Of a stretch of DNA of 22,623 nucleotides, positions 5,113 to 22,623 are shown piece after piece. Each line of letters opens with the position of its first letter. Position 1 is the stretch's first letter. Origin of the DNA: Candidatus Sumerlaeota bacterium (GTDB lineage Bacteria > Sumerlaeota > Sumerlaeia > JAFGJS01); the NCBI GenBank assembly GCA_016928995.1, contig JAFGJS010000141.1, positions 1 through 22,623 of the forward strand, given 5' to 3'. The position numbers were made by a program, and so were the translations under genes. Below the pieces are notes generated by a model. The model saw only the letters and a program-made list of their open reading frames with translations. It was not told the origin of the DNA and did not search any database.

Positions 5113-5411
5113 CTCGCTAAATTATACTACAAAAACACCTGACCAAGCCTGCGTAGATTCACATTCTTGCGATCAATGTAGTTTGTTATCTTGCCTTCGA
5201 TACGGTTTATTCTTTTGACATAAAACGGCCTTTTGTGATCTATTCCAGAGTAATTCCGGCCGATCCTGCAATATCGGCTCGCAGGAACAACGGTTAGGCT
5301 AACAGGCTATTTGGATGATATTATATAGTCCCAATAGGCACTGATAGAAGAAACAAAAGAAAATCATATAATTTTAATATCTTGTTGGCACTCATGAGAA
5401 AGGACAACATC
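5113..5411. other. intergenic region before the proteinase gene
   Basis: 299 bases with no plausible gene. It holds the second copy of the 72-bp promoter-plus-leader module (5203-5274) and an AT-rich stretch from about 5310 to 5390. No terminator-quality hairpin was found. Confidence 0.6.
5203..5274 (+). promoter_or_regulatory. 72-bp promoter-plus-leader module, copy B
   Basis: Same order as copy A: CGGTTTAT, TTGACA at 5215-5220, an 18-bp spacer, TCTATT at 5239-5244, then ATCCTGCAATAT. The two blocks match at 53 of 72 positions without gaps. It sits 137 bp before the proteinase start, so the transcript leader would be about 160 nt. Confidence 0.5.
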
Positions 5412-6425
5412 ATGGCTACAGCTAAAAAAGCAGCTGCGAAGAAGAGTGCACCCAACCCTGGTGATGCACCACCGGCCTCAAAGCCAGCAGGAACCAGCGA
5501 GCAGGCTGATCCGTCTGCACCCGCGAGCAAGCCATTTACTCAAGCGGACGTAGTTCAGGCAATCTTCGGCGCTTATCTCGAGCCTGACGCACCTCATAGC
5601 AAGAAGGCGGACGCGAATATCGCAGTCCAACGATATCTTGAACAGACAATTGCAAAGCACTCCGTAGGATCGCAGTACAACATCATCCTTTTCTACGATA
5701 CCACACGCATGGTTCAGAGTGACGCAGATAACATCTACTCGGCGGTCACGGAGTTCCCAGAAGAGAAACCTATTCTTGTCATTCTGCACTCGACGGGCGG
5801 CTATGTGGAACCGGCGTATCTAATCGGCAAGCTCCTTCGCGAATACTCCGGGGAGGACTTGCATATCGCGGTCCCGCGACGTGCAAAGTCAGCAGCAACA
5901 CTTCTGTGTTGTGCCGCCGACAGGATCCACATGGGCGGGCTGAGCGAACTAGGGCCAATCGATCCACAGATTGACAACCTTCCAGCCCTTGGTCTCAAGA
6001 GCTCCGTCCAGCATATCGCTGAACTCGTTGCCGAATACCCGCAAGCCACCGAACTCTTTTCAAACTATCTCGCGAAGGCGGTGAAGCCCATTCACATAGG
6101 TTACTATGAACGCGTAGCTGAGTCAGCCGTTCAGTATGCGGAGAGACTGCTCAAACCGCACGCGAAAGATCTGAAAGACAATCCGGAAAACATTGCCAAG
6201 ACCCTCGTTTACTCATACAAAGACCACGGATTCGTCATCGACAAGCAGGAAGCAGTGTCAATCTTCGGTGACAAACTCGTTGTTTTGAACACTCCAGAAT
6301 ATAACCTCGGGAATGCCCTGTATCAGGCATTGGACTTCATCAACCGTATTGCCGGGTATGCAAATCAGACATTTTACATGATTGGATCGCTTACAACAGC
6401 CCCCGTATTCACCGCAAAGAAGTGA
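5412..6425 (+). CDS. SDH-family Clp-fold serine proteinase
   Basis: A 337-residue protein. Residues 1-40 are a low-complexity Ala/Lys/Pro tail (MATAKKAAAKK, then Pro/Ser-rich), likely disordered. Residues 85-320 carry the serine dehydrogenase proteinase fold related to ClpP and SppA: LHSTGGYVEPAY at 125-136 with the glycine pair of the oxyanion hole; RRAKSAATLLCCAADRI at 156-172 with the likely nucleophile Ser160; SELGPIDPQ at 178-186; and YKDHGFVID at 269-277 with a candidate His. Biological substrates of such bacterial proteins are unknown. There is no signal peptide or membrane helix, so it should be cytoplasmic. The ATG at 5412 is chosen because AAAGGAC lies about 8 nt upstream; an in-frame ATG at 5394 lacks this. 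It stands alone with its own leader. The family call is good; the role is open. Confidence 0.82.
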   Translation: MATAKKAAAKKSAPNPGDAPPASKPAGTSEQADPSAPASKPFTQADVVQAIFGAYLEPDAPHSKKADANIAVQRYLEQTIAKHSVGSQYNIILFYDTTRMVQSDADNIYSAVTEFPEEKPILVILHSTGGYVEPAYLIGKLLREYSGEDLHIAVPRRAKSAATLLCCAADRIHMGGLSELGPIDPQIDNLPALGLKSSVQHIAELVAEYPQATELFSNYLAKAVKPIHIGYYERVAESAVQYAERLLKPHAKDLKDNPENIAKTLVYSYKDHGFVIDKQEAVSIFGDKLVVLNTPEYNLGNALYQALDFINRIAGYANQTFYMIGSLTTAPVFTAKK

Positions 6426-6437
6426 TGATGTGCCAAC

Positions 6438-6459
6438 AAGCCGTCGGAGGCGACGGCTT
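6438..6459 (+). terminator. hairpin just after the proteinase stop
   Basis: AAGCCGTC (6438-6445) pairs with GACGGCTT (6452-6459) across a 6-nt loop, 12 bp after the stop codon. No T-tract follows, so termination would be weak or factor-assisted. Confidence 0.4.
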
Positions 6460-6610
6460 GCAGCCGCGCCTCAACGGCACCATTGAGTGTAATTTGGTGG
6501 ATTTCATCTATATGATTTGGAAACGCATCATTTTCTGTATTTTGCTGATTGTGTTGCGGTAATGCCGTTATTTTACGGAACGTTCGTGCAAAAACTGCCT
6601 TAAAACGTCT

Positions 6611-6881
6611 CATTTGCAGCTGAAAATGCCTCGTTTGAAACTTCAAACACTTCATTCGAAGTCTCAAATGCCATAAATGAAGCTTCATTTGCCACATATC
6701 ACGCTTCATATGCCTCAAATGAAGCGTGATTTGCCTCAGATAACACTTCATATGCCTCGGATGAAGAGTGATTTGTGATAGATGACGCTTCATATGCGAT
6801 AAATGAAGCGTGATCTGCCATAGATGAAGCGTGATTTGTTTCGGATGAAGCGTGATCTGTCGCAAATGATGCTTCATTCAT
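6611..6881. repeat. 21-bp-period array of alternately inverted 12-mers
   Basis: Ten 12-bp cores start at 6677, 6698, 6719, 6740, 6761, 6782, 6803, 6824, 6845 and 6866, exactly 21 bp apart. The core is ATGAAGCGTGAT (forward) or ATCACGCTTCAT (reverse). The order is palindrome, R, F, R, F, R, F, F, F, near-palindrome. Spacers of 9 nt are also related (ATGCCTCAA, ATGCCTCGG, TTGCCTCAG). The pair 6698/6719 is a perfect 12-bp inverted repeat; 6740/6761 matches at 10 of 12 and 6782/6803 at 11 of 12. Degenerate units extend left to about 6611. Because 21 is seven codons, two minus-strand frames stay open and give heptapeptide repeats, but neither has a ribosome binding site. It lies between the proteinase and DUF3592 genes. 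Confidence 0.88.
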
Positions 6882-6897
6882 GGTGGATCAATTCTGT

Positions 6898-6926
6898 TTG
6901 ACAGCGATGGGCATTTTGCCTTAATT
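6898..6926 (+). promoter_or_regulatory. candidate promoter of the DUF3592 gene
   Basis: A consensus -35 TTGACA (6898-6903) is followed by a 17-bp spacer and a weak -10, TTAATT (6921-6926). It lies just right of the 21-bp array and about 37 bp before the ATG at 6963. Confidence 0.35.
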
Positions 6927-6962
6927 TTGCAGATTGCATATTACGGACCGAAGGCGGCGGCT

Positions 6963-7514
6963 ATGGAGGCATATCTCTTATTGGCTGTGATGGCGGTTGT
7001 GCAATCCAAAGCGATAAGCATGTTCTTTATCGTCCTGGCCTTTTTGGCCTTTGCGTTCGTTGTCGGGTATTTCGTGATGCCATCCAATATGGATCTGTAC
7101 CGGTCCGGATACAAGCAGGAGGCCCAAGCCCGGCGCGAGGCGAATGATAATGTGCAGTGGCAGACAGTGGAAGGCGTGCTGCTGGAATGCAATGTCGTCG
7201 CAACCGGTCAGCGCAGCCTGCGAAAAACAGATGCGCCCATGCGGCCGATTTTGCCCCAACCTCGATTTGAAAAAGAAGCCATGAAATATGACGCGCCCGA
7301 TTGGAAGTCCGGGCATTGCGTGCAATTCACCTATAGCTATTCGGTCGATGGAGAGGAGTATAGGGGCTTCAAGGCTGAAGGCGCTCCGGATTTTCAAACT
7401 CAAGCCGAAGCGGAGCAGATTAAAAGCAAAATCAAACCAGGCAAAACCATCACAGTATATTACGATCCCGAAGCGCACCACTATTCAAAAGTCAATTTCT
7501 ATGAGTTGTTTTAA
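6963..7514 (+). CDS. DUF3592 membrane-anchored protein
   Basis: A 183-residue protein. A hydrophobic N-terminus (about residues 3-40) forms one long or two short membrane helices and includes FFIVLAFLAFAFVVGYFV. The rest is a soluble domain with the DUF3592 pattern: WQTVEGVLLE, then FTYSYSVDGEEYRG, then KPGKTITVYYDPEAHHYS. In this family the domain is predicted as an extracytoplasmic beta-barrel of unknown role. The ATG at 6963 is preferred, with AAGGCGG just upstream; a TTG at 6927 and an ATG at 7020 are alternatives. It has a possible promoter of its own. Base use is AT-richer than the genes to the right. Confidence 0.7.
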   Translation: MEAYLLLAVMAVVQSKAISMFFIVLAFLAFAFVVGYFVMPSNMDLYRSGYKQEAQARREANDNVQWQTVEGVLLECNVVATGQRSLRKTDAPMRPILPQPRFEKEAMKYDAPDWKSGHCVQFTYSYSVDGEEYRGFKAEGAPDFQTQAEAEQIKSKIKPGKTITVYYDPEAHHYSKVNFYELF

Positions 7515-13566: not shown

Positions 13567-13617
13567 TGAATTCTGGTTTTCTTATCTCAAATAAATCGCA
13601 CTTTTTTTCATTACAGA

Positions 13618-13698
13618 GCGCTGAAAGCGCGACATATACCAGCCCAGGGCGAAGCCCTGGGTATGCATCGTTCAACATTGATTCAGCCCTGTAAGGGC
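13618..13698. repeat. three small-loop hairpins in a row
   Basis: GCGCT-GAA-AGCGC (13618-13630), CCCAGGGC-GAA-GCCCTGGG (13643-13661) and GCCCT-GTA-AGGGC (13686-13698). All have 3-nt loops, and the first and third are followed by a related GAC/GGC-ATA stretch. GTATGCATC occurs twice, after the second and third stems. This looks like a REP-type intergenic repeat. Confidence 0.65.
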
Positions 13699-22250: not shown

Positions 22251-22623
22251 GCCAACATCCATAGCGGCCGGGCGCTGAACAGGCAATGCAATTTTACTGA
22301 ACAAATCCGAAATTCGAAATCCTGAATCCGAAACAATCTCTAAATTCAAATGGCCAAAATTCTAAAAAAACCAGCTAACATGATGATTGCCGCGTATTGA
22401 TCAGTGTGGCTGGAACGGCTGTGTCCAAATGGCGCGGGTTGCACAGAACATCTTGCGTATTGCAGGCCAATGTGTTTGATACGTTAAAGTTTTATCAGTT
22501 TGGAATTTGTTTCGGATTTCGAAATTCGAATTTAGAATTCCCGGATTCAACTTCCAAGTGCCCCCCCCACGGGGTGGTCACGTGTTCTTTGAGAATACAA
22601 CTGCTGGCGTGGCGAAGCCAAGC
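22251..22623. other. gene-free right end with inverted repeats
   Basis: 373 bases before the window edge with no convincing gene. An inverted pair of AT-rich words (CGAAATCCGAAACAA and relatives) lies at 22303-22350 and 22503-22549, flanking about 150 bp of plain sequence. Eight C's run at 22561-22568. A promoter for the Wzt-like gene should be here, but I could not pick one. Confidence 0.6.
22303..22549. repeat. inverted pair of 'ccgaaattcgaaatccgaaac' repeats
   Basis: The left copy (22303-22350) and the reverse complement of the right copy (22503-22549) share ATTCGAAATCC, CCGAAACAA and TAAATTC words in a similar order with small insertions. The arms are about 150 bp apart. Confidence 0.55.

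Follow-up and report, generated by a model that had tools for sequence, protein, structure and literature searches.

A non-coding 21-bp tandem repeat array with in-phase dyads, a possible track for a DNA-binding protein, in a Candidatus Sumerlaeota bacterium

What a run of 21-bp units is doing in the non-coding gap at 6426-6962, flanked by two unrelated genes (for a ClpP-like SDH-type protease and a DUF3592 protein), is the question raised by this locus in the window, that is, in the whole 22,623-bp stretch of DNA analysed (contig JAFGJS010000141.1 of assembly GCA_016928995.1). When the gap was compared with itself over lags 5-59, the top self-identity was 0.467, at lag 42, and 1000 dinucleotide shuffles reached at most 0.347. 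Inside the array, self-identity was 0.67 at lag 42, 0.63 at lags 21 and 84, and 0.57 at lag 63; it stayed below 0.38 at the other lags. The ten 12-bp cores at 6677, 6698 and onward to 6866 followed one another in steps of exactly 21 bp with no indel, and the spacers between them were conserved (TGYC/TGCCNCR), in agreement with the original prediction. The array that had been placed at 6677-6877 was real but larger than proposed, with 14 units starting at about 6593 (Table 1). The unit was an imperfect 14-bp palindrome (TTTGAAGCTTCAAA / ATGAAGCTTCAT) followed by a 7-bp linker, TGCCNCA; the left units read TTGAAGCTTCAAATGCCTCAT and the right units ATGAAGCGTGATCTGCCATAG. It was nearly identical on both strands, and its 21 letters correspond to two turns of the helix; the helical phasing that had been predicted for the units was real. 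The leader in front of the array contained neither a sigma70-like promoter nor a conserved fold when these were sought.

Table 1. Positions, in the window, of the array and of the features around it
Feature	Position	Strand	Remarks
21-bp dyad array	6593..6886		14 units, the first four of type TTTGAAGCTTCAAATGCCTCA and the remaining ten of type RATGAAGCKTSATNTGCCNC
Ten right-hand cores (stretch of the original prediction)	6677..6877		part of the 14-unit array
Leader	6498..6592	+	about 95 bp, precedes the array; about 70% identity to L048 2903-3007 (C93)
9-bp perfect hairpin	6438..6461		AAGCCGTCG gagg CGACGGCTT; just 3' of the upstream gene; no U-run; seen by eye
Weak terminator-like hairpin	6909..6921	+	3' of the array; 2 found vs 0.9 expected by chance
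Upstream neighbour, ClpP-like SDH-type serine protease (PF01972)	5382..6425	+	outside the element
Downstream neighbour, DUF3592 protein	6927..7514	+	outside the element
167-aa open frame across the array	6374..6877	-	heptads ITLHLRQ/MKRHLSQ; judged spurious

A regular alternation of reverse and forward cores, with adjacent units forming 12-bp stems, had been put forward as well, and both had to be corrected. The alternation was not significant when lag-2 identity was compared with lag-1 identity over the ten units (P=0.08). Pairing between neighbours was perfect (12/12) only for the pair 6698/6719 and reached 8-11/12 in the other pairs, and over the ten units it was no greater than in random order (P=0.40). 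Adjacent pairing rose above random across all 14 units (P=0.001), which we attributed to the left-right gradient of unit types. The first core, ATGAAGCTTCAT, was a perfect palindrome and the remaining cores were self-complementary at 6-10 of 12 positions. Because the cores are near-palindromes, the orientation of any one of them is poorly defined; together with the non-significant order tests, this indicates that the palindromic consensus itself gives rise to the alternation. Strict alternation is not the meaningful feature of the array.

The prediction had proposed a search for recurrence, and arrays were found in the same genome and in others, with unit numbers that varied and neighbours that were not constant. 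In this genome, a second long copy at C80 (1149-1505) held 17 units and showed 74% identity over 261 bp (E 2.9e-41). Three units at C93 were preceded by a leader with about 70% identity to window 6498-6600, and the last 50 bp or so of the window leader was weakly present before the C80 array. Weak, short matches occurred at C12 and C47. The 12 units at C73 were built on a different palindrome, TTTCCAACTGGAAATGCCACA, in the same 21-bp geometry, and the 11 units at C67 had a fourth, unrelated sequence; this last array turned up in a blind TRF survey of 361 kb that had been selected independently of it. The window and C80 arrays are unrelated in sequence to the one at C73, and the only frame common to them was TTT-8-AAA-TGCCNCA, a loose target. 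In about 800 kb of the genome surveyed by TRF, all four non-coding arrays of more than 100 bp had a period of 21, three of the four sitting on contigs chosen for carrying a match. At least 234 substitutions were counted within four arrays by minimum spanning trees (74 in the window, 59 at C80, 48 at C73 and 53 in G006, a genome of another family) with no indel at all, and the indel rate given by TRF for the arrays was 0-1%.

Other repeats were observed in the same genome. A REP-like repeat, TCCCGAAGGGACATAGGAGCGTAGCC..., directly abutted the C80 array (L039 1530-1800), and the piece recurred, in inverted orientation, on either flank of a RAYT-like gene (L276 1353-1383 and 2026-2055); the lineage seems to have a REP family of its own, distinct from the 21-bp unit. 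Short tandem repeats of the heptamer type (AAATCCG, TTTAGGA, TTCCGGG) were present at window 22303-22333 and 22511-22537 and at L039 3841-3958. Near the C93 array, a 117-bp repeat (L048 4936-5828) apparently lay within a tail-fibre-like coding sequence. An Acido-Lenti-1 RNA (RF01687) was detected at window 13617-13661 on the minus strand with 51 bits, above the gathering score.

When 39 genomes of the class were searched with a sequence profile, two matched, the second being G006, from a different family. G006 carried one copy, of about 10 units, with an HTH-like gene on one side and an hsdM-like gene on the other (genes read by eye). The left-right gradient of unit types was colinear among window, C80 and G006 (P<0.001, P=0.001 and P=0.001), which suggests that the three arrays are copies of a single old one and not a continually homogenised satellite. 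A pattern scan led to a MAG of Planctomycetaceae bacterium Ct408_bin98 (G064) with many arrays (TTTTCAGATGAAAATGGCGCA, TTTGCCGGCGCAAATGCCGCA, TTTGCATGTGCAAATGGTTTA, ATTTGCCATGGCAAATGGTTT). These sat within mosaic elements with terminal inverted repeats of about 30 bp (AATAGACCTTTTCTCTAACCCTTCCCTAAG), which enclosed 3 units at C574, about 8 at C261 and about 12 at C463. Many mosaic intergenic elements were seen in this MAG (L310-L327, L236-L238), with a common end of about 30 bp, AGACCTTTTCTCTAACCCTTCCCTAAG, and mixed internal repeat modules, some of them with 21-bp arrays. The 117 stretches listed as matches of the pattern scan (genome_contigs) represent a lower bound and not a census; four of them (L164, L185, L204, L163) came from MAGs titled Planctomycetaceae, several with palindromic units such as GGGACATGTCCC. 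A 13-unit non-coding 21-bp array in Taibaiella lutea (L175 7000-7222) was not dyad-symmetric (P=0.22), showing that dyads are not universal in repeats of this kind. The array had no match in phages or plasmids and the pattern matches on viral contigs were unlike it by eye, and a phage or plasmid origin was rejected.

The reverse-complement symmetry of the units was then compared with that of permuted columns. Every array tested from this genome, G006 and G064 exceeded the permutations (window P<0.001, C80 0.005, C73 0.018, C67 0.0025, G006 <0.001, and 0.019, 0.012 and 0.007 for the G064 arrays), compared with 13% reaching 0.05 among the 111 other 21-bp arrays that served as the comparison set, taken from the matches listed by the blind pattern scan. 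The best dyad centre was the same in nearly all array types. A distance of exactly 10.5 bp separated the two best dyad centres in C73 and in the longer arrays of G064, the spacing required by a dyad-symmetric period of 21 bp. Between array types, palindrome pair 4-9 was CG five times and AT three times and was never broken. In eight array types, pairing of a palindrome half with its own partner was 0.79 vs 0.59 when halves were swapped (P=0.002), demonstrating compensating changes. The selected feature is best read as a geometry of the DNA and not as one sequence.

Enigmatic non-coding tandem repeats of 20-21 nt, constant in size and variable in sequence, have been described in bacteria by Subirana and Messeguer, who note that 20-21 nt equals two helix turns and propose either small RNAs or a protein whose polymerisation on DNA demands repeats of one size (PMC8161180). 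We file the array in this class because its size, its non-coding nature and the presence of several families of one length agree with it: the window, C80, C93, C73 and C67 arrays are all of 21 bp, no frame is consistently open between copies, and the families are window/C80/C93, C73 and C67. The array, lying 3' of a gene, is very probably a repeat of this kind. It is also intergenic and patchy between species, as those repeats are, and has a short conserved signal within the unit. Species-specific sequence is another trait of such repeats; here two of 39 genomes of the taxonomic class matched, but G006, of another family, has a related sequence. About 5-6 arrays were found, the published repeats being abundant in genomes with about 20 or more tandem repeats, and the 800 kb or so of this survey was covered without a sequence model. 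The arrays described here differ in the frame of two dyads with compensatory changes and in the attached leader, in place of which G064 has terminal inverted repeats. Repeats of this class are known from earlier work, and the dyad rule is an addition to it; PMC8161180 reports no such rule for the 21-nt repeats, short signals and their reverse being noted there in 52-nt repeats, and the rule may be implicit in the supplementary lists of Subirana and Messeguer.

Known systems of regularly spaced repeats were compared with the array. BIME-2 or REP arrays, moved by RAYT transposases, are likewise intergenic and consist of palindromic units at regular spacing whose orientation alternates (PMC2817692), and nine genes for Y1_Tnp (RAYT-like) proteins are present in the genome. 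However, the 21-bp units did not flank RAYT genes (none at 18 RAYT-like loci), their size and sequence were not REP-like, and G064 had arrays but no Y1_Tnp match; a REP/BIME identity was rejected, no RAYT gene being flanked by the unit. The BOX elements of Streptococcus pneumoniae (boxA-(boxB)n-boxC) resemble it in combining fixed end modules with variable tandem stem-loop modules, dispersed and intergenic (PMC3049150), but have another sequence and unit size, and neither terminal inverted repeats nor a second end module was recognised around the arrays of this genome, whereas G064 does have the inverted repeats. The suggestion that the array is a repeat element stands in part: the leader is common to window and C93, its end recurs at C80 and the G064 arrays are bounded by inverted repeats. 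CRISPR was rejected, as the linkers are conserved and are not unique spacers. The array was not an ordinary tandem repeat of a coding sequence either, and the original prediction was right on both counts. Iteron, parC and parS arrays are helically phased protein-binding repeats. They differ from the present case, in which several copies of varying sequence lie on one chromosome and no adjacent Rep or Par gene was recognised.

Among the readings named at the outset, we favour a multi-site protein-binding array on one face of the helix, the protein being putative. Each 21-bp period, or two helical turns, contains two dyad axes 10.5 bp apart, so that all dyads face the same side of the helix. A putative dimeric, loosely sequence-specific protein of chromosome architecture could bind these dyads and polymerise along that face, and the DNA at gene boundaries might thereby be stiffened or wrapped. 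That the in-phase dyads form a track for such an architectural protein at gene ends is a tentative proposal, while the explanation as a whole, with classification, DNA geometry and binding mechanism taken together, falls just short of an even chance. A wider version, which we regard as unlikely, would explain the 20-21 nt constancy by dyads placed every 10.5 bp: at the ends of genes, in two phyla or more, a dimeric nucleoid protein would polymerise along the arrays, whose sequence could drift while dyads and phase are kept.

The strongest rival to a protein track is a satellite without host function, shaped by template-switching at palindromes, which we consider rather unlikely. Slippage would multiply the units and quasi-palindrome template-switching would copy one arm to the other, keeping the dyads perfect and yielding compensating changes, and the copies would disperse within a larger non-autonomous element, made up of leader and array here and of the inverted-repeat mosaic in G064. 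Dispersed copies with a common leader agree with such a satellite, as do the inverted repeats that bound arrays of differing length in G064, the inconstant neighbour gene and the patchy occurrence by the sequence model; the dip in identity at lag 63 relative to lags 42 and 84 fits block duplication. However, slippage alone would not forbid indels across the substitutions counted above, nor would it explain why window, C73 and C67, unrelated in sequence but from one genome, all keep to 21 bp. The colinear gradient in window, C80 and G006 is unlike free homogenisation, and no bounding inverted repeats were found around this genome's arrays.

An RNA element in the 3'-UTR, co-transcribed with the upstream gene and using its tandem hairpins to protect the 3' end or to terminate transcription, is improbable. 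The window array folded strongly when compared with dinucleotide shuffles (z -6.5 to -8.6), several arrays started 0-90 bp from a stop codon (10 bp in G006, 61 at C80, 87 at C73, and at the stop codon itself in a Chitinophagaceae array), and the 52-nt satellites of B. coagulans are transcribed (PMC8161180, PMC8625621). However, both strands folded (z -6.5 and -8.0) and the sense strand was not the better one in the window or at C73, folding of the ten units was no better than with the units in random order (P=0.83 on the plus strand and 0.62 on the minus strand), and a period of 21 nt is without obvious meaning for RNA helices. No match to the array was obtained in an Rfam search. The folded RNA of the original prediction gained no specific support from these results.

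Intrinsically curved DNA, in which A/T tracts every 10.5 bp would bend the helix without any protein, is more doubtful still and very improbable for these arrays. The power of the AA/TT/AT/TA signal was concentrated at 10.5 bp, with hardly any at 21 bp, and with the Bolshoy wedge model the window array reached 0.93 deg/bp, above all sampled genome windows (P=0.01 vs column permutation), and C80 reached 1.13 (P=0.005). The De Santis and Olson parameters, however, gave no excess for window, C80 or G006, and one G064 array only was curved in all three models; the outcome depends on the model, one of three parameter sets favouring curvature for the window array. For the window array, neither strand-specific RNA structure nor static curvature is supported. 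A heptad-repeat protein, encoded by the minus-strand 167-aa frame or by a plus-strand frame, is scarcely credible and was rejected in all six frames: 21 bp makes seven codons, and there is an open minus frame in the window and an open plus frame at C73, but the open frame differs among copies, the 167-aa frame has a stop in C80, the 68 differences between window and C80 are spread without bias over the codon positions (26/25/17), stops are not avoided beyond what composition gives, and no Pfam match was found. A test for stop-free frames as a means of separating coding from non-coding arrays was discarded as too lax, since it called 80 of the 117 listed arrays 'coding-like'.

Constant-size repeats have been enigmatic in many bacteria, with no rule beyond their length. 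The arrays described here follow a definite rule: every 21 bp hold two dyads. It was seen in the window, in its paralogues and in other genomes, and the dyads were kept by compensating changes with no indels. The dyad symmetry may tell why the size of the repeat is constant. A search based on geometry could find arrays that sequence searches miss, and the rule makes the earlier guess of a protein polymerising on DNA directly testable by footprinting.
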